The notes beneath the pieces were generated by a model. It had not been told where the DNA came from. It was given only the letters and a program-made list of their open reading frames with translations, and did no database searches. A stretch of DNA of 64,000 bases from Phytophthora sp. 'mugwort' (lineage: Eukaryota; Oomycota; Peronosporomycetes; Peronosporales; Peronosporaceae), in the NCBI GenBank assembly GCA_033558025.1, contig JAUCEF010000009.1, forward strand, positions 62,001 to 126,000, in the 5' to 3' direction. Made by a program: the position numbers and the translations under genes. How positions within the stretch are numbered: the stretch's first letter is position 1; every line of letters begins with the position of its first letter. This document shows positions 1 to 54,986 of the stretch, in pieces.

Positions 1-252
1 GGACAGCTCGGGTGCGCACCACACGGGACTTGGCCACCTGCACGACCCCTCCTTACCTCCATACGAGCCACGCACCCGCCGGCATCGACCTCGGAATAGA
101 TCCATCTTTGAGCCGCGCCACGGCCAGCTCGCCCAAAACGGCGCATCTATTCAACTCTCGAGCCTTTGCCCAGACTGCCTACATACCGCTGCGGGTACCA
201 CAAGGCCCGAAACGTCCAAAGCTAGATGCCAGCAGAACAGGCATAAAGGGAT

Positions 253-333
253 CGACAGCTGTGAGACTTGAACTCACGCGGGTTACCCCAATAGATTTCG
301 AGTCTATCGCCTTAACCGCTCGGCCAAGCTGTC
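253..333 (-). tRNA. tRNA-Ser(CGA), array copy 1 (reference copy)
   Basis: Reading the minus strand gives a full cloverleaf. The acceptor stem GACAGCT pairs perfectly with AGCTGTC, and G follows as discriminator base 73, the serine identity base. The D arm is GCC/GGC around a loop with AGCGGTTAA. The anticodon stem ATAGA/TCTAT encloses the loop CTCGAAA, so the anticodon is CGA, which reads UCG codons. A long variable arm (GGG-TAA-CCC) marks a class II tRNA, and the T arm is GTGAG/CTCAC. Internal Pol III promoters are visible: A box TGGCCGAGCGG and a B box related to GGTTCGANTCC. There is no intron and CCA is not encoded. The 3' flank has only a TTT run within 15 bases, a weak Pol III terminator. 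Confidence 0.96.
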
Positions 334-664
334 CTAGCATCCATCACAACACCCGAACCGCCCTACAAAGTTGCATGCCAATTACACACCAACCAAGCCT
401 CAACACAGGCTGGGACAGCTCGGGTGCGCACCACACGGGACTTGGCCACCTGCACGACCCCTCCTTACCTCCATACGAGCCACGCACCCGCCGGCATCGA
501 CCTCGGAATAGATCCATCTTTGAGCCGCGCCACGGCCAGCTCGCCCAAAACGGCGCATCTATTCAACTCTCGAGCCTTTGCCCAGACTGCCTACATACCG
601 CTGCGGGTACCACAAGGCCCGAAACGTCCAAAGCTAGATGCCAGCAGAACAGGCATAAAGGGAT

Positions 665-745
665 CGACAGCTGTGAGACTTGAACTCACGCGGGTTACCC
701 CAATAGATTTCGAGTCTATCGCCTTAACCGCTCGGCCAAGCTGTC
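665..745 (-). tRNA. tRNA-Ser(CGA), array copy 2
   Basis: Reads the same as copy 1. Confidence 0.95.
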
Positions 746-1076
746 CTAGCATCCATCACAACACCCGAACCGCCCTACAAAGTTGCATGCCAATTACACA
801 CCAACCAAGCCTCAACACAGGCTGGGACAGCTCGGGTGCGCACCACACGGGACTTGGCCACCTGCACGACCCCTCCTTACCTCCATACGAGCCACGCACC
901 CGCCGGCATCGACCTCGGAATAGATCCATCTTTGAGCCGCGCCACGGCCAGCTCGCCCAAAACGGCGCATCTATTCAACTCTCGAGCCTTTGCCCAGACT
1001 GCCTACATACCGCTGCGGGTACCACAAGGCCCGAAACGTCCAAAGCTAGATGCCAGCAGAACAGGCATAAAGGGAT

Positions 1077-1157
1077 CGACAGCTGTGAGACTTGAACTCA
1101 CGCGGGTTACCCCAATAGATTTCGAGTCTATCGCCTTAACCGCTCGGCCAAGCTGTC
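1077..1157 (-). tRNA. tRNA-Ser(CGA), array copy 3
   Basis: Reads the same as copy 1. Confidence 0.95.
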
Positions 1158-1293
1158 CTAGCATCCATCACAACACCCGAACCGCCCTACAAAGTTGCAT
1201 GCCAATTACACACCAACCAAGCCTCAACACAGGCTGGGACAGCTCGGGTGCGCACCACACGGGACTTGGCCACCTGCACGACCATAAAGGGAT

Positions 1294-1374
1294 CGACAGC
1301 TGTGAGACTTGAACTCACGCGGGTTACCCCAATAGATTTCGAGTCTATCGCCTTAACCGCTCGGCCAAGCTGTC
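1294..1374 (-). tRNA. tRNA-Ser(CGA), array copy 4, in the shortened unit
   Basis: The tRNA is unchanged. The 195-bp spacer deletion ends about 12 bp from its 3' end, so the downstream flank up to CATAAAGGGAT is kept. Confidence 0.95.
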
Positions 1375-1705
1375 CTAGCATCCATCACAACACCCGAACC
1401 GCCCTACAAAGTTGCATGCCAATTACACACCAACCAAGCCTCAACACAGGCTGGGACAGCTCGGGTGCGCACCACACGGGACTTGGCCACCTGCACGACC
1501 CCTCCTTACCTCCATACGAGCCACGCACCCGCCGGCATCGACCTCGGAATAGATCCATCTTTGAGCCGCGCCACGGCCAGCTCGCCCAAAACGGCGCATC
1601 TATTCAACTCTCGAGCCTTTGCCCAGACTGCCTACATACCGCTGCGGGTACCACAAGGCCCGAAACGTCCAAAGCTAGATGCCAGCAGAACAGGCATAAA
1701 GGGAT

Positions 1706-1786
1706 CGACAGCTGTGAGACTTGAACTCACGCGGGTTACCCCAATAGATTTCGAGTCTATCGCCTTAACCGCTCGGCCAAGCTGTC
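1706..1786 (-). tRNA. tRNA-Ser(CGA), array copy 5
   Basis: Reads the same as copy 1. Confidence 0.95.
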
Positions 1787-2117
1787 CTAGCATCCATCAC
1801 AACACCCGAACCGCCCTACAAAGTTGCATGCCAATTACACACCAACCAAGCCTCAACACAGGCTGGGACAGCTCGGGTGCGCACCACACGGGACTTGGCC
1901 ACCTGCACGACCCCTCCTTACCTCCATACGAGCCACGCACCCGCCGGCATCGACCTCGGAATAGATCCATCTTTGAGCCGCGCCACGGCCAGCTCGCCCA
2001 AAACGGCGCATCTATTCAACTCTCGAGCCTTTGCCCAGACTGCCTACATACCGCTGCGGGTACCACAAGGCCCGAAACGTCCAAAGCTAGATGCCAGCAG
2101 AACAGGCATAAAGGGAT

Positions 2118-2198
2118 CGACAGCTGTGAGACTTGAACTCACGCGGGTTACCCCAATAGATTTCGAGTCTATCGCCTTAACCGCTCGGCCAAGCTGTC
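2118..2198 (-). tRNA. tRNA-Ser(CGA), array copy 6
   Basis: Reads the same as copy 1. Confidence 0.95.
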
Positions 2199-2529
2199 CT
2201 AGCATCCATCACAACACCCGAACCGCCCTACAAAGTTGCATGCCAATTACACACCAACCAAGCCTCAACACAGGCTGGGACAGCTCGGGTGCGCACCACA
2301 CGGGACTTGGCCACCTGCACGACCCCTCCTTACCTCCATACGAGCCACGCACCCGCCGGCATCGACCTCGGAATAGATCCATCTTTGAGCCGCGCCACGG
2401 CCAGCTCGCCCAAAACGGCGCATCTATTCAACTCTCGAGTCTTTGCCCAGACTGCCTACATACCGCTGCGGGTACCACAAGGCCCGAAACGTCCAAAGCT
2501 AGATGCCAGCAGAACAGGCATAAAGGGAT

Positions 2530-2610
2530 CGACAGCTGTGAGACTTGAACTCACGCGGGTTACCCCAATAGATTTCGAGTCTATCGCCTTAACCGCTCGG
2601 CCAAGCTGTC
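2530..2610 (-). tRNA. tRNA-Ser(CGA), array copy 7
   Basis: tRNA as copy 1. The spacer carries the GAGTC variant (GAGCC elsewhere). Confidence 0.95.
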
Positions 2611-2941
2611 CTAGCATCCATCACAACACCCGAACCGCCCTACAAAGTTGCATGCCAATTACACACCAACCAAGCCTCAACACAGGCTGGGACAGCTCGG
2701 GTGCGCACCACACGGGACTTGGCCACCTGCACGACCCCTCCTTACCTCCATACGAGCCACGCACCCGCCGGCATCGACCTCGGAATAGATCCATCTTTGA
2801 GCCGCGCCACGGCCAGCTCGCCCAAAACGGCGCATCTATTCAACTCTCGAGTCTTTGCCCAGACTGCCTACATACCGCTGCGGGTACCACAAGGCCCGAA
2901 ACGTCCAAAGCTAGATGCCAGCAGAACAGGCATAAAGGGAT

Positions 2942-3022
2942 CGACAGCTGTGAGACTTGAACTCACGCGGTTTACCCCAATAGATTTCGAGTCTATCGCC
3001 TTAACCGCTCGGCCAAGCTGTC
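2942..3022 (-). tRNA. tRNA-Ser(CGA), array copy 8, variable-arm variant
   Basis: A single change in the variable arm (TAACCC becomes TAAACC on the tRNA strand) shortens the variable-arm stem. Everything else matches copy 1. Shared with copies 9 and 10. Confidence 0.93.
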
Positions 3023-3353
3023 CTAGCATCCATCACAACACCCGAACCGCCCTACAAAGTTGCATGCCAATTACACACCAACCAAGCCTCAACACAGGCT
3101 GGGACAGCTCGGGTGCGCACCACACGGGACTTGGCCACCTGCACGACCCCTCCTTACCTCCATACGAGCCACGCACCCGCCGGCATCGACCTCGGAATAG
3201 ATCCATCTTTGAGCCGCGCCACGGCCAGCTCGCCCAAAACGGCGCATCTATTCAACTCTCGAGTCTTTGCCCAGACTGCCTACATACCGCTGCGGGTACC
3301 ACAAGGCCCGAAACGTCCAAAGCTAGATGCCAGCAGAACAGGCATAAAGGGAT

Positions 3354-3434
3354 CGACAGCTGTGAGACTTGAACTCACGCGGTTTACCCCAATAGATTTC
3401 GAGTCTATCGCCTTAACCGCTCGGCCAAGCTGTC
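3354..3434 (-). tRNA. tRNA-Ser(CGA), array copy 9, variable-arm variant
   Basis: Same variable-arm change as copy 8. Confidence 0.93.
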
Positions 3435-3765
3435 CTAGCATCCATCACAACACCCGAACCGCCCTACAAAGTTGCATGCCAATTACACACCAACCAAGCC
3501 TCAACACAGGCTGGGACAGCTCGGGTGCGCACCACACGGGACTTGGCCACCTGCACGACCCCTCCTTACCTCCATACGAGCCACGCACCCGCCGGCATCG
3601 ACCTCGGAATAGATCCATCTTTGAGCCGCGCCACGGCCAGCTCGCCCAAAACGGCGCATCTATTCAACTCTCGAGCCTTTGCCCAGACTGCCTACATACC
3701 GCTGCGGGTACCACAAGGCCCGAAACGTCCAAAGCTAGATGCCAGCAGAACAGGCATAAAGGGAT

Positions 3766-3846
3766 CGACAGCTGTGAGACTTGAACTCACGCGGTTTACC
3801 CCAATAGATTTCGAGTCTATCGCCTTAACCGCTCGGCCAAGCTGTC
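3766..3846 (-). tRNA. tRNA-Ser(CGA), array copy 10, variable-arm variant
   Basis: Same variable-arm change as copy 8, but the spacer lacks the GAGTC variant, so the two variants are separated here. Confidence 0.93.
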
Positions 3847-4177
3847 CTAGCATCCATCACAACACCCGAACCGCCCTACAAAGTTGCATGCCAATTACAC
3901 ACCAACCAAGCCTCAACACAGGCTGGGACAGCTCGGGTGCGCACCACACGGGACTTGGCCACCTGCACGACCCCTCCTTACCTCCATACGAGCCACGCAC
4001 CCGCCGGCATCGACCTCGGAATAGATCCATCTTTGAGCCGCGCCACGGCCAGCTCGCCCAAAACGGCGCATCTATTCAACTCTCGAGCCTTTGCCCAGAC
4101 TGCCTACATACCGCTGCGGGTACCACAAGGCCCGAAACGTCCAAAGCTAGATGCCAGCAGAACAGGCATAAAGGGAT

Positions 4178-4258
4178 CGACAGCTGTGAGACTTGAACTC
4201 ACGCGGGTTACCCCAATAGATTTCGAGTCTATCGCCTTAACCGCTCGGCCAAGCTGTC
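4178..4258 (-). tRNA. tRNA-Ser(CGA), array copy 11
   Basis: Reads the same as copy 1. Confidence 0.95.
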
Positions 4259-4589
4259 CTAGCATCCATCACAACACCCGAACCGCCCTACAAAGTTGCA
4301 TGCCAATTACACACCAACCAAGCCTCAACACAGGCTGGGACAGCTCGGGTGCGCACCACACGGGACTTGGCCACCTGCACGACCCCTCCTTACCTCCATA
4401 CGAGCCACGCACCCGCCGGCATCGACCTCGGAATAGATCCATCTTTGAGCCGCGCCACGGCCAGCTCGCCCAAAACGGCGCATCTATTCAACTCTCGAGC
4501 CTTTGCCCAGACTGCCTACATACCGCTGCGGGTACCACAAGGCCCGAAACGTCCAAAGCTAGATGCCAGCAGAACAGGCATAAAGGGAT

Positions 4590-4670
4590 CGACAGCTGTG
4601 AGACTTGAACTCACGCGGGTTACCCCAATAGATTTCGAGTCTATCGCCTTAACCGCTCGGCCAAGCTGTC
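4590..4670 (-). tRNA. tRNA-Ser(CGA), array copy 12
   Basis: Reads the same as copy 1. Confidence 0.95.
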
Positions 4671-5001
4671 CTAGCATCCATCACAACACCCGAACCGCCC
4701 TACAAAGTTGCATGCCAATTACACACCAACCAAGCCTCAACACAGGCTGGGACAGCTCGGGTGCGCACCACACGGGACTTGGCCACCTGCACGACCCCTC
4801 CTTACCTCCATACGAGCCACGCACCCGCCGGCATCGACCTCGGAATAGATCCATCTTTGAGCCGCGCCACGGCCAGCTCGCCCAAAACGGCGCATCTATT
4901 CAACTCTCGAGCCTTTGCCCAGACTGCCTACATACCGCTGCGGGTACCACAAGGCCCGAAACGTCCAAAGCTAGATGCCAGCAGAACAGGCATAAAGGGA
5001 T

Positions 5002-5082
5002 CGACAGCTGTGAGACTTGAACTCACGCGGGTTACCCCAATAGATTTCGAGTCTATCGCCTTAACCGCTCGGCCAAGCTGTC
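5002..5082 (-). tRNA. tRNA-Ser(CGA), array copy 13
   Basis: Reads the same as copy 1. Confidence 0.95.
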
Positions 5083-5413
5083 CTAGCATCCATCACAACA
5101 CCCGAACCGCCCTACAAAGTTGCATGCCAATTACACACCAACCAAGCCTCAACACAGGCTGGGACAGCTCGGGTGCGCACCACACGGGACTTGGCCACCT
5201 GCACGACCCCTCCTTACCTCCATACGAGCCACGCACCCGCCGGCATCGACCTCGGAATAGATCCATCTTTGAGCCGCGCCACGGCCAGCTCGCCCAAAAC
5301 GGCGCATCTATTCAACTCTCGAGCCTTTGCCCAGACTGCCTACATACCGCTGCGGGTACCACAAGGCCCGAAACGTCCAAAGCTAGATGCCAGCAGAACA
5401 GGCATAAAGGGAT

Positions 5414-5494
5414 CGACAGCTGTGAGACTTGAACTCACGCGGGTTACCCCAATAGATTTCGAGTCTATCGCCTTAACCGCTCGGCCAAGCTGTC
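5414..5494 (-). tRNA. tRNA-Ser(CGA), array copy 14
   Basis: Reads the same as copy 1. Confidence 0.95.
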
Positions 5495-5825
5495 CTAGCA
5501 TCCATCACAACACCCGAACCGCCCTACAAAGTTGCATGCCAATTACACACCAACCAAGCCTCAACACAGGCTGGGACAGCTCGGGTGCGCACCACACGGG
5601 ACTTGGCCACCTGCACGACCCCTCCTTACCTCCATACGAGCCACGCACCCGCCGGCATCGACCTCGGAATAGATCCATCTTTGAGCCGCGCCACGGCCAG
5701 CTCGCCCAAAACGGCGCATCTATTCAACTCTCGAGTCTTTGCCCAGACTGCCTACATACCGCTGCGGGTACCACAAGGCCCGAAACGTCCAAAGCTAGAT
5801 GCCAGCAGAACAGGCATAAAGGGAT

Positions 5826-5906
5826 CGACAGCTGTGAGACTTGAACTCACGCGGGTTACCCCAATAGATTTCGAGTCTATCGCCTTAACCGCTCGGCCAA
5901 GCTGTC
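5826..5906 (-). tRNA. tRNA-Ser(CGA), array copy 15
   Basis: tRNA as copy 1; spacer has the GAGTC variant. Confidence 0.95.
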
Positions 5907-6237
5907 CTAGCATCCATCACAACACCCGAACCGCCCTACAAAGTTGCATGCCAATTACACACCAACCAAGCCTCAACACAGGCTGGGACAGCTCGGGTGC
6001 GCACCACACGGGACTTGGCCACCTGCACGACCCCTCCTTACCTCCATACGAGCCACGCACCCGCCGGCATCGACCTCGGAATAGATCCATCTTTGAGCCG
6101 CGCCACGGCCAGCTCGCCCAAAACGGCGCATCTATTCAACTCTCGAGCCTTTGCCCAGACTGCCTACATACCGCTGCGGGTACCACAAGGCCCGAAACGT
6201 CCAAAGCTAGATGCCAGCAGAACAGGCATAAAGGGAT

Positions 6238-6318
6238 CGACAGCTGTGAGACTTGAACTCACGCGGGTTACCCCAATAGATTTCGAGTCTATCGCCTTAA
6301 CCGCTCGGCCAAGCTGTC
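6238..6318 (-). tRNA. tRNA-Ser(CGA), array copy 16
   Basis: Reads the same as copy 1. Confidence 0.95.
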
Positions 6319-6649
6319 CTAGCATCCATCACAACACCCGAACCGCCCTACAAAGTTGCATGCCAATTACACACCAACCAAGCCTCAACACAGGCTGGGA
6401 CAGCTCGGGTGCGCACCACACGGGACTTGGCCACCTGCACGACCCCTCCTTACCTCCATACGAGCCACGCACCCGCCGGCATCGACCTCGGAATAGATCC
6501 ATCTTTGAGCCGCGCCACGGCCAGCTCGCCCAAAACGGCGCATCTATTCAACTCTCGAGCCTTTGCCCAGACTGCCTACATACCGCTGCGGGTACCACAA
6601 GGCCCGAAACGTCCAAAGCTAGATGCCAGCAGAACAGGCATAAAGGGAT

Positions 6650-6730
6650 CGACAGCTGTGAGACTTGAACTCACGCGGGTTACCCCAATAGATTTCGAGT
6701 CTATCGCCTTAACCGCTCGGCCAAGCTGTC
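6650..6730 (-). tRNA. tRNA-Ser(CGA), array copy 17
   Basis: Reads the same as copy 1. Confidence 0.95.
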
Positions 6731-7061
6731 CTAGCATCCATCACAACACCCGAACCGCCCTACAAAGTTGCATGCCAATTACACACCAACCAAGCCTCAA
6801 CACAGGCTGGGACAGCTCGGGTGCGCACCACACGGGACTTGGCCACCTGCACGACCCCTCCTTACCTCCATACGAGCCACGCACCCGCCGGCATCGACCT
6901 CGGAATAGATCCATCTTTGAGCCGCGCCACGGCCAGCTCGCCCAAAACGGCGCATCTATTCAACTCTCGAGCCTTTGCCCAGACTGCCTACATACCGCTG
7001 CGGGTACCACAAGGCCCGAAACGTCCAAAGCTAGATGCCAGCAGAACAGGCATAAAGGGAT

Positions 7062-7142
7062 CGACAGCTGTGAGACTTGAACTCACGCGGGTTACCCCAA
7101 TAGATTTCGAGTCTATCGCCTTAACCGCTCGGCCAAGCTGTC
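7062..7142 (-). tRNA. tRNA-Ser(CGA), array copy 18
   Basis: Reads the same as copy 1. Confidence 0.95.
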
Positions 7143-7473
7143 CTAGCATCCATCACAACACCCGAACCGCCCTACAAAGTTGCATGCCAATTACACACCA
7201 ACCAAGCCTCAACACAGGCTGGGACAGCTCGGGTGCGCACCACACGGGACTTGGCCACCTGCACGACCCCTCCTTACCTCCATACGAGCCACGCACCCGC
7301 CGGCATCGACCTCGGAATAGATCCATCTTTGAGCCGCGCCACGGCCAGCTCGCCCAAAACGGCGCATCTATTCAACTCTCGAGTCTTTGCCCAGACTGCC
7401 TACATACCGCTGCGGGTACCACAAGGCCCGAAACGTCCAAAGCTAGATGCCAGCAGAACAGGCATAAAGGGAT

Positions 7474-7554
7474 CGACAGCTGTGAGACTTGAACTCACGC
7501 GGGTTACCCCAATAGATTTCGAGTCTATCGCCTTAACCGCTCGGCCAAGCTGTC
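7474..7554 (-). tRNA. tRNA-Ser(CGA), array copy 19
   Basis: tRNA as copy 1; spacer has the GAGTC variant. Confidence 0.95.
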
Positions 7555-7885
7555 CTAGCATCCATCACAACACCCGAACCGCCCTACAAAGTTGCATGCC
7601 AATTACACACCAACCAAGCCTCAACACAGGCTGGGACAGCTCGGGTGCGCACCACACGGGACTTGGCCACCTGCACGACCCCTCCTTACCTCCATACGAG
7701 CCACGCACCCGCCGGCATCGACCTCGGAATAGATCCATCTTTGAGCCGCGCCACGGCCAGCTCGCCCAAAACGGCGCATCTATTCAACTCTCGAGCCTTT
7801 GCCCAGACTGCCTACATACCGCTGCGGGTACCACAAGGCCCGAAACGTCCAAAGCTAGATGCCAGCAGAACAGGCATAAAGGGAT

Positions 7886-7966
7886 CGACAGCTGTGAGAC
7901 TTGAACTCACGCGGGTTACCCCAATAGATTTCGAGTCTATCGCCTTAACCGCTCGGCCAAGCTGTC
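7886..7966 (-). tRNA. tRNA-Ser(CGA), array copy 20
   Basis: Reads the same as copy 1. Confidence 0.95.
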
Positions 7967-8297
7967 CTAGCATCCATCACAACACCCGAACCGCCCTACA
8001 AAGTTGCATGCCAATTACACACCAACCAAGCCTCAACACAGGCTGGGACAGCTCGGGTGCGCACCACACGGGACTTGGCCACCTGCACGACCCCTCCTTA
8101 CCTCCATACGAGCCACGCACCCGCCGGCATCGACCTCGGAATAGATCCATCTTTGAGCCGCGCCACGGCCAGCTCGCCCAAAACGGCGCATCTATTCAAC
8201 TCTCGAGCCTTTGCCCAGACTGCCTACATACCGCTGCGGGTACCACAAGGCCCGAAACGTCCAAAGCTAGATGCCAGCAGAACAGGCATAAAGGGAT

Positions 8298-8378
8298 CGA
8301 CAGCTGTGAGACTTGAACTCACGCGGGTTACCCCAATAGATTTCGAGTCTATCGCCTTAACCGCTCGGCCAAGCTGTC
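8298..8378 (-). tRNA. tRNA-Ser(CGA), array copy 21
   Basis: Reads the same as copy 1. Confidence 0.95.
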
Positions 8379-8709
8379 CTAGCATCCATCACAACACCCG
8401 AACCGCCCTACAAAGTTGCATGCCAATTACACACCAACCAAGCCTCAACACAGGCTGGGACAGCTCGGGTGCGCACCACACGGGACTTGGCCACCTGCAC
8501 GACCCCTCCTTACCTCCATACGAGCCACGCACCCGCCGGCATCGACCTCGGAATAGATCCATCTTTGAGCCGCGCCACGGCCAGCTCGCCCAAAACGGCG
8601 CATCTATTCAACTCTCGAGTCTTTGCCCAGACTGCCTACATACCGCTGCGGGTACCACAAGGCCCGAAACGTCCAAAGCTAGATGCCAGCAGAACAGGCA
8701 TAAAGGGAT

Positions 8710-8790
8710 CGACAGCTGTGAGACTTGAACTCACGCGGGTTACCCCAATAGATTTCGAGTCTATCGCCTTAACCGCTCGGCCAAGCTGTC
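8710..8790 (-). tRNA. tRNA-Ser(CGA), array copy 22
   Basis: tRNA as copy 1; spacer has the GAGTC variant. Confidence 0.95.
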
Positions 8791-9121
8791 CTAGCATCCA
8801 TCACAACACCCGAACCGCCCTACAAAGTTGCATGCCAATTACACACCAACCAAGCCTCAACACAGGCTGGGACAGCTCGGGTGCGCACCACACGGGACTT
8901 GGCCACCTGCACGACCCCTCCTTACCTCCATACGAGCCACGCACCCGCCGGCATCGACCTCGGAATAGATCCATCTTTGAGCCGCGCCACGGCCAGCTCG
9001 CCCAAAACGGCGCATCTATTCAACTCTCGAGCCTTTGCCCAGACTGCCTACATACCGCTGCGGGTACCACAAGGCCCGAAACGTCCAAAGCTAGATGCCA
9101 GCAGAACAGGCATAAAGGGAT

Positions 9122-9202
9122 CGACAGCTGTGAGACTTGAACTCACGCGGGTTACCCCAATAGATTTCGAGTCTATCGCCTTAACCGCTCGGCCAAGCTG
9201 TC
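9122..9202 (-). tRNA. tRNA-Ser(CGA), array copy 23
   Basis: Reads the same as copy 1. Confidence 0.95.
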
Positions 9203-9533
9203 CTAGCATCCATCACAACACCCGAACCGCCCTACAAAGTTGCATGCCAATTACACACCAACCAAGCCTCAACACAGGCTGGGACAGCTCGGGTGCGCAC
9301 CACACGGGACTTGGCCACCTGCACGACCCCTCCTTACCTCCATACGAGCCACGCACCCGCCGGCATCGACCTCGGAATAGATCCATCTTTGAGCCGCGCC
9401 ACGGCCAGCTCGCCCAAAACGGCGCATCTATTCAACTCTCGAGCCTTTGCCCAGACTGCCTACATACCGCTGCGGGTACCACAAGGCCCGAAACGTCCAA
9501 AGCTAGATGCCAGCAGAACAGGCATAAAGGGAT

Positions 9534-9614
9534 CGACAGCTGTGAGACTTGAACTCACGCGGGTTACCCCAATAGATTTCGAGTCTATCGCCTTAACCGC
9601 TCGGCCAAGCTGTC
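9534..9614 (-). tRNA. tRNA-Ser(CGA), array copy 24
   Basis: Reads the same as copy 1. Confidence 0.95.
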
Positions 9615-9945
9615 CTAGCATCCATCACAACACCCGAACCGCCCTACAAAGTTGCATGCCAATTACACACCAACCAAGCCTCAACACAGGCTGGGACAGC
9701 TCGGGTGCGCACCACACGGGACTTGGCCACCTGCACGACCCCTCCTTACCTCCATACGAGCCACGCACCCGCCGGCATCGACCTCGGAATAGATCCATCT
9801 TTGAGCCGCGCCACGGCCAGCTCGCCCAAAACGGCGCATCTATTCAACTCTCAAGTCTTTGCCCAGACTGCCTACATACCGCTGCGGGTACCACAAGGCC
9901 CGAAACGTCCAAAGCTAGATGCCAGCAGAACAGGCATAAAGGGAT

Positions 9946-10026
9946 CGACAGCTGTGAGACTTGAACTCACGCGGGTTACCCCAATAGATTTCGAGTCTAT
10001 CGCCTTAACCGCTCGGCCAAGCTGTC
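9946..10026 (-). tRNA. tRNA-Ser(CGA), array copy 25
   Basis: tRNA as copy 1. The spacer has GAGTC plus a private change that gives CTCAAGTC. Confidence 0.95.
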
Positions 10027-10357
10027 CTAGCATCCATCACAACACCCGAACCGCCCTACAAAGTTGCATGCCAATTACACACCAACCAAGCCTCAACACA
10101 GGCTGGGACAGCTCGGGTGCGCACCACACGGGACTTGGCCACCTGCACGACCCCTCCTTACCTCCATACGAGCCACGCACCCGCCGGCATCGACCTCGGA
10201 ATAGATCCATCTTTGAGCCGCGCCACGGCCAGCTCGCCCAAAACGGCGCATCTATTCAACTCTCGAGTCTTTGCCCAGACTGCCTACATACCGCTGCGGG
10301 TACCACAAGGCCCGAAACGTCCAAAGCTAGATGCCAGCAGAACAGGCATAAAGGGAT

Positions 10358-10438
10358 CGACAGCTGTGAGACTTGAACTCACGCGGGTTACCCCAATAGA
10401 TTTCGAGTCTATCGCCTTAACCGCTCGGCCAAGCTGTC
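10358..10438 (-). tRNA. tRNA-Ser(CGA), array copy 26
   Basis: tRNA as copy 1; spacer has the GAGTC variant. Confidence 0.95.
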
Positions 10439-10769
10439 CTAGCATCCATCACAACACCCGAACCGCCCTACAAAGTTGCATGCCAATTACACACCAACCA
10501 AGCCTCAACACAGGCTGGGACAGCTCGGGTGCGCACCACACGGGACTTGGCCACCTGCACGACCCCTCCTTACCTCCATACGAGCCACGCACCCGCCGGC
10601 ATCGACCTCGGAATAGATCCATCTTTGAGCCGCGCCACGGCCAGCTCGCCCAAAACGGCGCATCTATTCAACTCTCGAGCCTTTGCCCAGACTGCCTACA
10701 TACCGCTGCGGGTACCACAAGGCCCGAAACGTCCAAAGCTAGATGCCAGCAGAACAGGCATAAAGGGAT

Positions 10770-10850
10770 CGACAGCTGTGAGACTTGAACTCACGCGGGT
10801 TACCCCAATAGATTTCGAGTCTATCGCCTTAACCGCTCGGCCAAGCTGTC
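10770..10850 (-). tRNA. tRNA-Ser(CGA), array copy 27
   Basis: tRNA as copy 1. The 5' flank on the tRNA strand carries the GCGTGCC variant (GCATGCC elsewhere). Confidence 0.95.
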
Positions 10851-11181
10851 CTAGCATCCATCACAACACCCGAACCGCCCTACAAAGTTGCGTGCCAATT
10901 ACACACCAACCAAGCCTCAACACAGGCTGGGACAGCTCGGGTGCGCACCACACGGGACTTGGCCACCTGCACGACCCCTCCTTACCTCCATACGAGCCAC
11001 GCACCCGCCGGCATCGACCTCGGAATAGATCCATCTTTGAGCCGCGCCACGGCCAGCTCGCCCAAAACGGCGCATCTATTCAACTCTCGAGCCTTTGCCC
11101 AGACTGCCTACATACCGCTGCGGGTACCACAAGGCCCGAAACGTCCAAAGCTAGATGCCAGCAGAACAGGCATAAAGGGAT

Positions 11182-11262
11182 CGACAGCTGTGAGACTTGA
11201 ACTCACGCGGGTTACCCCAATAGATTTCGAGTCTATCGCCTTAACCGCTCGGCCAAGCTGTC
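11182..11262 (-). tRNA. tRNA-Ser(CGA), array copy 28
   Basis: Reads the same as copy 1. Confidence 0.95.
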
Positions 11263-11593
11263 CTAGCATCCATCACAACACCCGAACCGCCCTACAAAGT
11301 TGCATGCCAATTACACACCAACCAAGCCTCAACACAGGCTGGGACAGCTCGGGTGCGCACCACACGGGACTTGGCCACCTGCACGACCCCTCCTTACCTC
11401 CATACGAGCCACGCACCCGCCGGCATCGACCTCGGAATAGATCCATCTTTGAGCCGCGCCACGGCCAGCTCGCCCAAAACGGCGCATCTATTCAACTCTC
11501 GAGCCTTTGCCCAGACTGCCTACATACCGCTGCGGGTACCACAAGGCCCGAAACGTCCAAAGCTAGATGCCAGCAGAACAGGCATAAAGGGAT

Positions 11594-11674
11594 CGACAGC
11601 TGTGAGACTTGAACTCACGCGGGTTACCCCAATAGATTTCGAGTCTATCGCCTTAACCGCTCGGCCAAGCTGTC
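11594..11674 (-). tRNA. tRNA-Ser(CGA), array copy 29
   Basis: Reads the same as copy 1. Confidence 0.95.
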
Positions 11675-12005
11675 CTAGCATCCATCACAACACCCGAACC
11701 GCCCTACAAAGTTGCATGCCAATTACACACCAACCAAGCCTCAACACAGGCTGGGACAGCTCGGGTGCGCACCACACGGGACTTGGCCACCTGCACGACC
11801 CCTCCTTACCTCCATACGAGCCACGCACCCGCCGGCATCGACCTCGGAATAGATCCATCTTTGAGCCGCGCCACGGCCAGCTCGCCCAAAACGGCGCATC
11901 TATTCAACTCTCGAGCCTTTGCCCAGACTGCCTACATACCGCTGCGGGTACCACAAGGCCCGAAACGTCCAAAGCTAGATGCCAGCAGAACAGGCATAAA
12001 GGGAT

Positions 12006-12086
12006 CGACAGCTGTGAGACTTGAACTCACGCGGGTTACCCCAATAGATTTCGAGTCTATCGCCTTAACCGCTCGGCCAAGCTGTC
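12006..12086 (-). tRNA. tRNA-Ser(CGA), array copy 30
   Basis: Reads the same as copy 1. Confidence 0.95.
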
Positions 12087-12417
12087 CTAGCATCCATCAC
12101 AACACCCGAACCGCCCTACAAAGTTGCATGCCAATTACACACCAACCAAGCCTCAACACAGGCTGGGACAGCTCGGGTGCGCACCACACGGGACTTGGCC
12201 ACCTGCACGACCCCTCCTTACCTCCATACGAGCCACGCACCCGCCGGCATCGACCTCGGAATAGATCCATCTTTGAGCCGCGCCACGGCCAGCTCGCCCA
12301 AAACGGCGCATCTATTCAACTCTCGAGCCTTTGCCCAGACTGCCTACATACCGCTGCGGGTACCACAAGGCCCGAAACGTCCAAAGCTAGATGCCAGCAG
12401 AACAGGCATAAAGGGAT

Positions 12418-12498
12418 CGACAGCTGTGAGACTTGAACTCACGCGGGTTACCCCAATAGATTTCGAGTCTATCGCCTTAACCGCTCGGCCAAGCTGTC
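12418..12498 (-). tRNA. tRNA-Ser(CGA), array copy 31
   Basis: Reads the same as copy 1. Confidence 0.95.
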
Positions 12499-12829
12499 CT
12501 AGCATCCATCACAACACCCGAACCGCCCTACAAAGTTGCATGCCAATTACACACCAACCAAGCCTCAACACAGGCTGGGACAGCTCGGGTGCGCACCACA
12601 CGGGACTTGGCCACCTGCACGACCCCTCCTTACCTCCATACGAGCCACGCACCCGCCGGCATCGACCTCGGAATAGATCCATCTTTGAGCCGCGCCACGG
12701 CCAGCTCGCCCAAAACGGCGCATCTATTCAACTCTCGAGCCTTTGCCCAGACTGCCTACATACCGCTGCGGGTACCACAAGGCCCGAAACGTCCAAAGCT
12801 AGATGCCAGCAGAACAGGCATAAAGGGAT

Positions 12830-12910
12830 CGACAGCTGTGAGACTTGAACTCACGCGGGTTACCCCAATAGATTTCGAGTCTATCGCCTTAACCGCTCGG
12901 CCAAGCTGTC
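12830..12910 (-). tRNA. tRNA-Ser(CGA), array copy 32
   Basis: tRNA as copy 1; flank has the GCGTGCC variant seen at copy 27. Confidence 0.95.
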
Positions 12911-13241
12911 CTAGCATCCATCACAACACCCGAACCGCCCTACAAAGTTGCGTGCCAATTACACACCAACCAAGCCTCAACACAGGCTGGGACAGCTCGG
13001 GTGCGCACCACACGGGACTTGGCCACCTGCACGACCCCTCCTTACCTCCATACGAGCCACGCACCCGCCGGCATCGACCTCGGAATAGATCCATCTTTGA
13101 GCCGCGCCACGGCCAGCTCGCCCAAAACGGCGCATCTATTCAACTCTCGAGCCTTTGCCCAGACTGCCTACATACCGCTGCGGGTACCACAAGGCCCGAA
13201 ACGTCCAAAGCTAGATGCCAGCAGAACAGGCATAAAGGGAT

Positions 13242-13322
13242 CGACAGCTGTGAGACTTGAACTCACGCGGGTTACCCCAATAGATTTCGAGTCTATCGCC
13301 TTAACCGCTCGGCCAAGCTGTC
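13242..13322 (-). tRNA. tRNA-Ser(CGA), array copy 33
   Basis: Reads the same as copy 1. Confidence 0.95.
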
Positions 13323-13653
13323 CTAGCATCCATCACAACACCCGAACCGCCCTACAAAGTTGCATGCCAATTACACACCAACCAAGCCTCAACACAGGCT
13401 GGGACAGCTCGGGTGCGCACCACACGGGACTTGGCCACCTGCACGACCCCTCCTTACCTCCATACGAGCCACGCACCCGCCGGCATCGACCTCGGAATAG
13501 ATCCATCTTTGAGCCGCGCCACGGCCAGCTCGCCCAAAACGGCGCATCTATTCAACTCTCGAGCCTTTGCCCAGACTGCCTACATACCGCTGCGGGTACC
13601 ACAAGGCCCGAAACGTCCAAAGCTAGATGCCAGCAGAACAGGCATAAAGGGAT

Positions 13654-13734
13654 CGACAGCTGTGAGACTTGAACTCACGCGGGTTACCCCAATAGATTTC
13701 GAGTCTATCGCCTTAACCGCTCGGCCAAGCTGTC
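13654..13734 (-). tRNA. tRNA-Ser(CGA), array copy 34
   Basis: Reads the same as copy 1. Confidence 0.95.
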
Positions 13735-14065
13735 CTAGCATCCATCACAACACCCGAACCGCCCTACAAAGTTGCATGCCAATTACACACCAACCAAGCC
13801 TCAACACAGGCTGGGACAGCTCGGGTGCGCATCACACGGGACTTGGCCACCTGCACGACCCCTCCTTACCTCCATACGAGCCACGCACCCGCCGGCATCG
13901 ACCTCGGAATAGATCCATCTTTGAGCCGCGCCACGGCCAGCTCGCCCAAAACGGCGCATCTATTCAACTCTCGAGCCTTTGCCCAGACTGCCTACATACC
14001 GCTGCGGGTACCACAAGGCCCGAAACGTCCAAAGCTAGATGCCAGCAGAACAGGCATAAAGGGAT

Positions 14066-14146
14066 CGACAGCTGTGAGACTTGAACTCACGCGGGTTACC
14101 CCAATAGATTTCGAGTCTATCGCCTTAACCGCTCGGCCAAGCTGTC
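14066..14146 (-). tRNA. tRNA-Ser(CGA), array copy 35
   Basis: tRNA as copy 1; spacer has the GCGCATC variant (GCGCACC elsewhere). Confidence 0.95.
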
Positions 14147-14477
14147 CTAGCATCCATCACAACACCCGAACCGCCCTACAAAGTTGCATGCCAATTACAC
14201 ACCAACCAAGCCTCAACACAGGCTGGGACAGCTCGGGTGCGCACCACACGGGACTTGGCCACCTGCACGACCCCTCCTTACCTCCATACGAGCCACGCAC
14301 CCGCCGGCATCGACCTCGGAATAGATCCATCTTTGAGCCGCGCCACGGCCAGCTCGCCCAAAACGGCGCATCTATTCAACTCTCGAGCCTTTGCCCAGAC
14401 TGCCTACATACCGCTGCGGGTACCACAAGGCCCGAAACGTCCAAAGCTAGATGCCAGCAGAACAGGCATAAAGGGAT

Positions 14478-14558
14478 CGACAGCTGTGAGACTTGAACTC
14501 ACGCGGGTTACCCCAATAGATTTCGAGTCTATCGCCTTAACCGCTCGGCCAAGCTGTC
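14478..14558 (-). tRNA. tRNA-Ser(CGA), array copy 36
   Basis: Reads the same as copy 1. Confidence 0.95.
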
Positions 14559-14889
14559 CTAGCATCCATCACAACACCCGAACCGCCCTACAAAGTTGCA
14601 TGCCAATTACACACCAACCAAGCCTCAACACAGGCTGGGACAGCTCGGGTGCGCACCACACGGGACTTGGCCACCTGCACGACCCCTCCTTACCTCCATA
14701 CGAGCCACGCACCCGCCGGCATCGACCTCGGAATAGATCCATCTTTGAGCCGCGCCACGGCCAGCTCGCCCAAAACGGCGCATCTATTCAACTCTCGAGC
14801 CTTTGCCCAGACTGCCTACATACCGCTGCGGGTACCACAAGGCCCGAAACGTCCAAAGCTAGATGCCAGCAGAACAGGCATAAAGGGAT

Positions 14890-14970
14890 CGACAGCTGTG
14901 AGACTTGAACTCACGCGGGTTACCCCAATAGATTTCGAGTCTATCGCCTTAACCGCTCGGCCAAGCTGTC
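14890..14970 (-). tRNA. tRNA-Ser(CGA), array copy 37
   Basis: Reads the same as copy 1. Confidence 0.95.
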
Positions 14971-15301
14971 CTAGCATCCATCACAACACCCGAACCGCCC
15001 TACAAAGTTGCATGCCAATTACACACCAACCAAGCCTCAACACAGGCTGGGACAGCTCGGGTGCGCACCACACGGGACTTGGCCACCTGCACGACCCCTC
15101 CTTACCTCCATACGAGCCACGCACCCGCCGGCATCGACCTCGGAATAGATCCATCTTTGAGCCGCGCCACGGCCAGCTCGCCCAAAACGGCGCATCTATT
15201 CAACTCTCGAGCCTTTGCCCAGACTGCCTACATACCGCTGCGGGTACCACAAGGCCCGAAACGTCCAAAGCTAGATGCCAGCAGAACAGGCATAAAGGGA
15301 T

Positions 15302-15382
15302 CGACAGCTGTGAGACTTGAACTCACGCGGGTTACCCCAATAGATTTCGAGTCTATCGCCTTAACCGCTCGGCCAAGCTGTC
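15302..15382 (-). tRNA. tRNA-Ser(CGA), array copy 38
   Basis: Reads the same as copy 1. Confidence 0.95.
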
Positions 15383-15713
15383 CTAGCATCCATCACAACA
15401 CCCGAACCGCCCTACAAAGTTGCATGCCAATTACACACCAACCAAGCCTCAACACAGGCTGGGACAGCTCGGGTGCGCATCACACGGGACTTGGCCACCT
15501 GCACGACCCCTCCTTACCTCCATACGAGCCACGCACCCGCCGGCATCGACCTCGGAATAGATCCATCTTTGAGCCGCGCCACGGCCAGCTCGCCCAAAAC
15601 GGCGCATCTATTCAACTCTCGAGCCTTTGCCCAGACTGCCTACATACCGCTGCGGGTACCACAAGGCCCGAAACGTCCAAAGCTAGATGCCAGCAGAACA
15701 GGCATAAAGGGAT

Positions 15714-15794
15714 CGACAGCTGTGAGACTTGAACTCACGCGGGTTACCCCAATAGATTTCGAGTCTATCGCCTTAACCGCTCGGCCAAGCTGTC
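15714..15794 (-). tRNA. tRNA-Ser(CGA), array copy 39
   Basis: tRNA as copy 1; spacer has the GCGCATC variant seen at copy 35. Confidence 0.95.
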
Positions 15795-16125
15795 CTAGCA
15801 TCCATCACAACACCCGAACCGCCCTACAAAGTTGCATGCCAATTACACACCAACCAAGCCTCAACACAGGCTGGGACAGCTCGGGTGCGCACCACACGGG
15901 ACTTGGCCACCTGCACGACCCCTCCTTACCTCCATACGAGCCACGCACCCGCCGGCATCGACCTCGGAATAGATCCATCTTTGAGCCGCGCCACGGCCAG
16001 CTCGCCCAAAACGGCGCATCTATTCAACTCTCGAGCCTTTGCCCAGACTGCCTACATACCGCTGCGGGTACCACAAGGCCCGAAACGTCCAAAGCTAGAT
16101 GCCAGCAGAACAGGCATAAAGGGAT

Positions 16126-16206
16126 CGACAGCTGTGAGACTTGAACTCACGCGGGTTACCCCAATAGATTTCGAGTCTATCGCCTTAACCGCTCGGCCAA
16201 GCTGTC
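16126..16206 (-). tRNA. tRNA-Ser(CGA), array copy 40
   Basis: Reads the same as copy 1. Confidence 0.95.
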
Positions 16207-16537
16207 CTAGCATCCATCACAACACCCGAACCGCCCTACAAAGTTGCATGCCAATTACACACCAACCAAGCCTCAACACAGGCTGGGACAGCTCGGGTGC
16301 GCACCACACGGGACTTGGCCACCTGCACGACCCCTCCTTACCTCCATACGAGCCACGCACCCGCCGGCATCGACCTCGGAATAGATCCATCTTTGAGCCG
16401 CGCCACGGCCAGCTCGCCCAAAACGGCGCATCTATTCAACTCTCGAGCCTTTGCCCAGACTGCCTACATACCGCTGCGGGTACCACAAGGCCCGAAACGT
16501 CCAAAGCTAGATGCCAGCAGAGAAGGCATAAAGGGAT

Positions 16538-16618
16538 CGACAGCTGTGAGACTTGAACTCACGCGGGTTACCCCAATAGATTTCGAGTCTATCGCCTTAA
16601 CCGCTATGCCAAGCTGTC
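16538..16618 (-). tRNA. tRNA-Ser(CGA), array copy 41, D-arm variant at the array edge
   Basis: The last copy differs from all others in the D arm: GGCCGAGCGG becomes GGCATAGCGG. This breaks the third D-stem pair but still fits an A-box pattern. Acceptor, anticodon, variable and T arms are unchanged. The 5' flank on the tRNA strand diverges within about 35 bp, where gypsy sequence begins. It may be a decaying edge copy or a functional isodecoder. Confidence 0.85.
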
Positions 16619-16655
16619 CTAGCATCCATCACATACCCGAACCGCTCTGTAAAGG

Positions 16656-53377: not shown

Positions 53378-54986
53378 ATGCTGACGCTACAAGTTGGGCA
53401 GTGCGGGAACCAGCTCGGGCGCGCGCTGTTCGACAAGCTTGCGGCGGAGGAGGATGTGGCCAGTTCCAGGGAATCGGCCTTCTTCCGCAGGGTAGACGAC
53501 TTCTGCCCCGACCGCTCCGTGGTGCGCGTTGATAGCGGGCTAAGAGCGCGGGCGGTACTCGTCGATATGGAGCCAAAGGTCATTCAGCAGTGCTACAAGC
53601 TGGCGAAGAGCGGGAAGACGGTTGCTGCGTGGGAGTATGAGCCCAAGAACGCCTTCACAAGGCAGAGCGGATCGGGCAACAACTGGGCCAGCGGATACCG
53701 GACACAGGGAACAGAGGTGGAGAGTGAGCTGTTGGATCTGCTACAGTCGGTTCGTGTTGCGCTGCTGGACTACCCTGTCACTAGACCGACCGATTGACCA
53801 TGCTATTTGATGTGCTCTACGACAAGGAAGCGGAGCGCTGTGACCTGCTGAAGGGATTTCTTACGCTGCAAAGCGCAGCAGGAGGTACAGGCTCTGGACT
53901 GGGCTCGTTCCTCACCGAAAAGCTGGCAGACTTCTACCCGTCGACTTCATTGTTGAACGCTGTAGTATGGCCATATCAATCCGGAGAGGTGATTGTGCAG
54001 AATTATAATGCGATGCTAACCATGGCGAGCCTCGCCGACGTTGCACACGGCATTTTTATGCTCCAGAACGACGCAGCGAGTTTAATTTGCCAGAAGCTAC
54101 TGCGTATCCCAAGCCCTACATTCGACTCAATGAACGAAGTCCTAGCTGCTCACCTGGCCTCTTCATTTCTGGTGGTGGACGGCTACTCATCGTTTCGATC
54201 GCGCAGGACGCTTGACCCACTTAGTGAAATCTGCGAGCGGCTATGTCAGCACCCAGTACGAATCCCATGAACCTGCTCTGGAATGCTCGATGAGTTGTTG
54301 TGTGCTAATGTTTATGCTGTGATACATGCATTAGGCATTCAAGCTACTGGACATTAAGATGATGCCGTTAATGCCTCATCGGTCGAAAAAGTTTAGCACA
54401 CACACCTGGACGGGCATCGTGAAGCATCTGCACCAGGTTGCAACCTTGCTGTCTGCTGTTCAGCCAAAATTGTCCGAACTAATTAGCTTTCTTCTGCTTC
54501 TGTTGCCAGATGCAAATTGCCAACGCAACATTCGAAGAAGGTATCGATTGGGATGTATCTCTAGAAACTGACCAAGGCAAAGTTCTTAACCGGTCAGTCG
54601 GTAGCATACTCATTCTACGGGGCAAGCATTCGATGCAGACGGATCCAACAGCTTTTTCGGACTCACGGATGTATGCTCCATGGAATGCGGATCCGTTCCG
54701 ATGCTTTTCATCAAGCTCGAACTTCAACGATTACGACAAAACGGGGACTTTGATCAGGTACGTTATGCAGCATAGGGGATTGCTGCCGAAATGCATCTAA
54801 TCCTTTCCATGTAGCAATTCGAAAGCCATGGTGCATACTCTAGCGACCACGACGGACAAGGCCTACGATATGTTCGCTCACGGTGCGTATCTGCACCAGT
54901 ATGAACGGTTTGGCATTGAACGCGATTTCTTCCAAGAAGCTTTTCTTCGAGTAGACCAAATTACGCAGAACTACTCTTCGCTGTGA
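53378..54986 (+). CDS. TUBD1: Delta-tubulin, 440 aa, five exons
   Basis: Exons 53,378-53,749, 53,827-54,255, 54,335-54,436, 54,510-54,757 and 54,815-54,986 join to 1,323 nt. All four introns (77, 79, 73 and 57 bp) have GT-AG ends, and branch-like TTGAC or CTAAT words are visible in at least three. The N-terminus MLTLQVGQCGNQLG is the tubulin nucleotide-loop start. GSGNNWASGY (residues 98-107) is the delta-type version of the loop, and AGGTGSGLGSF (about 142-151) is the tubulin GTP signature. Later, FEEGIDWDV, SILILRGK and GAYLHQYERFGIE match the C-terminal half of delta-tubulins. Length is close to the usual 450. Delta-tubulin is needed for triplet microtubules of basal bodies, so the gene implies flagellated stages (zoospores). 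Expression in sporulation is expected but not shown here. Confidence 0.93.

Follow-up and report, generated by a model that had tools for sequence, protein, structure and literature searches.

A large tandem array of tRNA-Ser(CGA) genes beneath a chromosome end of Phytophthora sp. 'mugwort', probably kept uniform by concerted evolution

The stretch of DNA analyzed here, referred to as the window, comprises 64,000 nucleotides of Phytophthora sp. 'mugwort' and corresponds to positions 62001-126000 of contig JAUCEF010000009.1 (C9; other contigs of the assembly are likewise given by number). Its first part is occupied by a tandem array of transfer RNA (tRNA) genes for serine with the anticodon CGA. 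With ARAGORN, 41 tRNA-Ser(CGA) genes were identified at window positions 253-16618, all on the minus strand. The Rfam tRNA model, with a cut-off of 29 bits, recovered 41/41 at the same places, 40 of them with a score of 60.3 bits and the innermost with 53.4 bits, and Tandem Repeats Finder (TRF) gave 99-100% matches for the array in the window. The 41 copies on one strand that were described in an initial annotation, made from the sequence alone, could thus be confirmed, and so could its statement that the array continues past the window; chance can be disregarded as an explanation. As assembled, the full array contains 188 tRNA-Ser(CGA) genes at C9:11369-78618. The minus strand carries every one of them, so that they point towards the telomere, and array sequence starts at C9:11074, ahead of the first gene. 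The window shows the inner 41 of these 188 copies. Coordinates of the features are listed in Table 1.

Table 1. Features of the tRNA-Ser(CGA) array within the window; "global" numbers count copies over the whole array.
Feature	Position in window	Strand	Basis
Inner (centromere-side) part of the array, 41/188 copies, continuing to C9:11074	1-16655	-	ARAGORN, TRF, Rfam
First tRNA-Ser(CGA) gene of the window, 81 bp, one of 177/188 identical copies	253-333	-	ARAGORN
Gene pair with 217-bp spacing, representing the short unit without the 195-bp spacer segment	1077-1374	-	ARAGORN, TRF
Copies 8-10 (global 155-157), common substitution at gene position 52	2942-3846	-	ARAGORN, copy comparison
Innermost copy (global 188), two changes at gene positions 12-13, 53.4 bits	16538-16618	-	Rfam
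Degraded rest of the last unit, where the array ends on its inner side	16619-16655	-	Edge placed by eye

C9 has a length of 3,689,044 bases and starts with CCCTAAA telomere repeats, and the array lies ∼11 kb from that contig end; the mapping to a chromosome end that had been proposed as a check places it near a telomere. The assembly comprises 86.26 Mb in 154 contigs; among contigs 1-21, 17 are large and account for 80.6 Mb. It is concluded that the array is real and large, that it looks functional and that it belongs to a type described before in oomycetes. Very probably, it consists of nuclear tRNA-Ser(CGA) genes in tandem that undergo concerted evolution.

Each unit consists of an 81-bp gene (as called) and a spacer and occurs mainly in two lengths, 412 and 217 bp, of which the shorter is without a 195-bp piece of the spacer. 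The exact 412-bp spacing given in the initial annotation holds for most steps, namely 128 of 187 over the whole array, but 49/187 steps measure 217 bp and the remaining 10 measure 411, 413, 372 or 216 bp. In the window, the step from copy 3 to copy 4 is the only one of 217 bp, and all others are 412 bp. Identical gene copies make up 177 of the 188, in line with the homogeneous, single-isoacceptor array that had been described. The variants include four copies with a change at position 52 (global copies 143 and 155-157), three with a change at position 77, three for which the gene call is two bases longer, and copy 188, the innermost, in which positions 12-13, taken to fall in the D arm, are both changed. 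Copies 8-10 and 41 of the window had been singled out earlier as variants. This stands, except that the substitution in copies 8-10 is also found in global copy 143. The discriminator G, the long variable arm and the acceptor stem resemble those of a working eukaryotic serine tRNA, and the internal A and B boxes fit the consensus. The predicted fold of the gene gave z = -2.4, and 6 of 200 shuffled sequences were as stable.

Comparison of whole units resulted in 26 distinct units among 187. Copies of rare types were clustered, with a mean gap of 16.7 units compared to 38.2 ± 3.9 in shuffled orders (0/2000 as low), and adjacent identical units were mildly enriched (41 compared to 30.2 ± 4.5, with 29/2000 shuffles as high). 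A block of eight units recurs at units 36-43 and 85-92; in 300 shuffles, no repeated block exceeded six units. In the string of unit order several types are seen only in the vicinity of one array end. The clustering of rare types and the recurring block fit unequal exchange and conversion, processes that would both homogenize the copies and alter their number.

Near-identical repeats are prone to mis-assembly, and numbers of tRNA genes vary between assemblies (PMC9584435). That the copy number or the junction on the telomere side is an artefact of assembly is nevertheless highly unlikely. The order of the 26 unit types is clustered and not random, unlike what simple inflation of a repeat would give, and the cap and telomere of C9 resemble those at most other ends of large contigs. 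In addition, read depth agrees for representative tRNA families of P. infestans (PMC9584435).

A degenerate pattern for tRNA-Ser(CGA) was searched genome-wide and gave 188 sites, 187 on one strand and one on the other. A recount on the DNA placed exactly 187 sites in the C9 array and one in a stretch of C18; array copy 188 is altered within the pattern. In the C18 stretch, no tRNA gene was identified by ARAGORN. Genome-wide, no tRNA-Ser(CGA) gene could be found outside the array at the sensitivity of this pattern, by which a more diverged gene could be missed. Because none was found elsewhere at this sensitivity, the proposed subtelomeric filler is unlikely to explain the array completely. A pattern for the serine anticodon arm, allowing up to three mismatches, had 271 matches on one strand and 61 on the opposite one; 188 of these are in the C9 array, 81 in C4:140001-280000 (80 + 1), and one fits the relic on C18. 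Patterns for tRNA-Cys and tRNA-Ser(GCT) gave 0 matches each and are maybe too strict, so that nothing is concluded from them.

The nature of such arrays has been read in two conflicting ways in oomycetes, as true tRNA genes and as repeats resembling short interspersed nuclear elements (SINEs). The latter term was applied to clusters in the related oomycete Peronospora effusa, which consist of 10 to 970 tRNA units of near-identical sequence, with any one kind restricted to a single place, and vary in size between isolates (PMC11540230). The architecture of near-identical tRNA plus spacer with recent expansion is the same, and the homogeneity of the C9 array is similar, with no significant excess of conservation in the gene over the spacer. 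It is still very unlikely that the C9 units are SINE-like retroelements that merely resemble tRNA genes. When the upstream spacer was searched genome-wide with up to three mismatches, 188 matches were obtained and all 188 were in the array, so that no dispersed copies were found within this limit; more diverged copies could escape, and very common words are skipped by the DNA search. Apart from the array, a relative of the spacer was seen only in the relic on C18, which has 82% identity over query positions 14-277 and includes both the gene and upstream DNA. An internally promoted transcript of RNA polymerase III (Pol III) would not carry this upstream DNA, and the relic therefore counts against a SINE. 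Since its match extends past the part present in the 217-bp unit, up to query position 277, it also suggests that the long unit is the older one. The authors of the P. effusa study describe each element as confined to the region where it occurs and as probably unable to mobilize (PMC11540230), and the pairing of tRNA-Val(AAC) with tRNA-Ser(AGA) on C4, also found as a dimeric array in P. infestans (PMC9584435), favors gene arrays that are kept over time. Overall, the sequence evidence, consisting of nearly all copies being intact, no tRNA-Ser(CGA) gene found elsewhere by the pattern, an upstream spacer found only in the array within three mismatches and a relic with upstream DNA, favors tRNA genes over a SINE. 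Single-source and upstream-DNA evidence thus opposes the label SINE-like for the C9 array. As no other source of its single isoacceptor was found, this array allows the conflict between the two published readings to be tested directly.

In P. infestans, monomeric tRNA arrays of hundreds of copies have been reported (Matson et al., 2022, PMC9584435). Like the C9 array, these belong to the same genus, are long, consist of a single isoacceptor, lie on one chromosome and contain near-identical copies. Their variants are grouped, often near an edge, and rare units cluster likewise here. The C9 array accordingly has the features of an oomycete tandem tRNA array, with many near-identical copies arranged head to tail on one chromosome and variants in groups. 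The dimeric Val(AAC)/Ser(AGA) array is common to both species as well, with a unit of 850 nt in P. infestans and ∼1164 bp here. In contrast, the examples given in the consulted text of PMC9584435 do not include tRNA-Ser(CGA), nor does that text mention a capped edge in the middle of a unit. In the main text of the paper on the telomere-to-telomere genome of P. sojae (PMC11139960), 'tRNA' at the start of a word is absent. The initial annotation had considered the array the strongest candidate for an undescribed system; this is not supported, because the arrays of P. infestans and the similar clusters of P. effusa (PMC11540230) are published.

Two further arrays were seen in the assembly. On C1, tRNA-Gly(TCC) and tRNA-Gly(CCC) genes form an array at ∼3.739-3.759 Mb, ∼1 Mb from the nearer end. 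The tRNA-Val(AAC)/tRNA-Ser(AGA) array on C4 extends from C4:184598 to at least 279 kb. It switches strand near C4:278958, where the last two genes read on the plus strand, and may continue in inverted orientation. Because of these two genes, the ∼60 anticodon-arm sites that were not placed may represent this inverted continuation. A general B-box pattern gave 1994 sites genome-wide compared to 134 for the reversed control; places were obtained for the first 100 of the 1994 sites, and the tally of arrays refers to the three that were seen. The Rfam tRNA search of the genome resulted in 63 matches, 62 of them with one top score, all on C15 or on contigs numbered 19 or higher. Among these contigs, C15, C19, C20 and C21 measure 30-66 kb and are tentatively taken to be mitochondrial. 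Since the matches are restricted to these contigs, the genome search is no survey of nuclear arrays.

Among the roles proposed for the array in the initial annotation, a bulk supply of UCG-reading tRNA fits best with the sequence. At least some of the copies would be transcribed by Pol III, and those transcribed would supply this tRNA. UCG is the commonest serine codon, with 122 of 4421 codons in a small sample of nine open reading frames (ORFs) longer than 250 codons and outside the arrays, some of which are perhaps transposon-derived or spurious. This usage fits the supply of a much-used tRNA and leaves the number of 188 copies unexplained. In P. infestans, the number of tRNA genes and codon use are only modestly correlated (R = 0.41; PMC9584435).

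Several observations weigh against an array of working genes under concerted evolution. First, a terminator of four T residues (T4) is not found near the gene: the first T4 is at +114/115 in 138 of 188 copies, 50/188 copies have none within 300 nt, and 50/187 intergene gaps contain none. In comparison, the tRNA-Val genes on C4 also are without T4 within 300 nt (82/82) and tRNA-Gly(CCC) on C1 has its first T4 at +95/96 in 7/8 genes, whereas tRNA-Ser(AGA) and tRNA-Gly(TCC) have T4 at +1 to +19. Either shorter T runs may end transcription or neighboring genes may be read together. Second, a pattern for tRNA-Ser(TGA) gave three sites, on C1 and C5. Such a tRNA could decode UCG through wobble, in which case the array would not have to be essential. 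Finally, 2 of 81 gene positions and 16 of 331 spacer positions are variable (Fisher p = 0.55). Stronger conservation of the gene than of the spacer was therefore not supported, and no selection on the gene is evident from these data.

The edge of the array on the telomere side lies outside the window. It is broken in the middle of a unit at C9:11074, where the array overlaps by three bases (GTT) with a retroelement fragment that is itself cut inside its first reading frame. Within C9:1-10000, full and truncated copies of this element are present, with short and long blocks of CCCTAAA among them. The larger frame of the element matched the reverse transcriptase family RVT_1 with 25.5 bits and so did not reach the curated cut-off, which is 29.6. 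No endonuclease family was detected at E values up to 0.01 in the two element frames scanned, and no solved structure matched the reverse transcriptase of the cap. Most matches to the element in the assembly (51/54) are located within 15 kb of the ends of large contigs, a fraction corresponding to 0.6% of the length of those contigs, and 50 of these 51 have their 5' end towards the telomere; the exception is reversed, at the end of C18. Relatives of the element mark 27 of the 34 ends of the 17 large contigs. The remaining three matches comprise two in the interior of C2 and one on the small contig C25. The C2 pair, at C2:2653661-2656190, represents the only matches far inside a large contig and is arranged in opposite orientations; it may be the trace of a past chromosome fusion or of what was once an end. 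At four other ends that were sampled, cap-like sequence stops 1.8-4.6 kb from the contig start. CCCTAAA is found at the start of 15/17 large contigs, including C9. The first bases of C10 read N, and C13 (C13:1-300) starts not with telomere repeats but with what is presumably 18S ribosomal RNA gene sequence.

From sequence features, the cap element appears to fit the endonuclease-deficient Penelope-like elements associated with telomeres. Common to both are a location at chromosome ends, a near-fixed orientation and telomere repeats (PMC3846280); the sub-threshold reverse transcriptase match, with no endonuclease detected in the two frames scanned, may agree with the lack of a GIY-YIG endonuclease in such elements. 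In contrast to those elements, the element of the C9 cap is cut inside its first frame at the array and is not joined by its 3' end (PMC3846280). We infer that the C9 end was remade when a break within the array was joined to a retroelement-and-telomere cap, which would have left the array outermost beneath the cap. Searches of the open-licence literature of PubMed Central showed no paper on a tRNA array that is cut within a unit and has a telomeric retroelement as its cap, and the capped outer edge may be the one new detail of this array. As an apparent remaking of a chromosome end inside a tRNA array, it lends itself to the study of how telomeric retroelements take part in end repair.

The position directly beneath the cap, ∼11 kb from the telomere end and with genes pointing towards the telomere, would suit a mainly structural role, as a TFIIIC-bound boundary, a fork barrier or an organizer of the chromosome end. 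It has been suggested that tRNA arrays may take part in organizing the nucleus or chromatin (PMC9584435). In Entamoeba, tandem arrays hold nearly all tRNA genes and a role at chromosome ends was proposed in which they replace telomere repeats (PMC2652664), whereas here CCCTAAA repeats are present and only one of the three arrays seen is terminal. A subtelomeric position was rejected as a rule for tRNA arrays, since the C4 array lies 184.6 kb and the C1 array ∼1 Mb from the ends. Moreover, no tRNA gene was identified by ARAGORN in the 7-kb stretches read at the four other sampled ends. A structural or protective function is possible from the sequence, but there is little probability that it is the main role of the array. 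Somewhat speculative, and improbable, is a model in which the array serves as a fragile, expendable buffer of the chromosome end: breaks, perhaps arising at forks stalled at Pol III genes, would cost no more than spare copies, the end of a telomere-specific retroelement would be joined, and unequal exchange would rebuild the array. If true, tRNA dosage and chromosome-end repair would be linked.

Away from the array, two adjoining ORFs at window positions 53378-54270 each match the tubulin family, with a stop codon between them that may reflect an intron, an error or a broken gene. A Myb-like protein encoded in the window has full-length matches to proteins of several Phytophthora species, with 79-84% identity.

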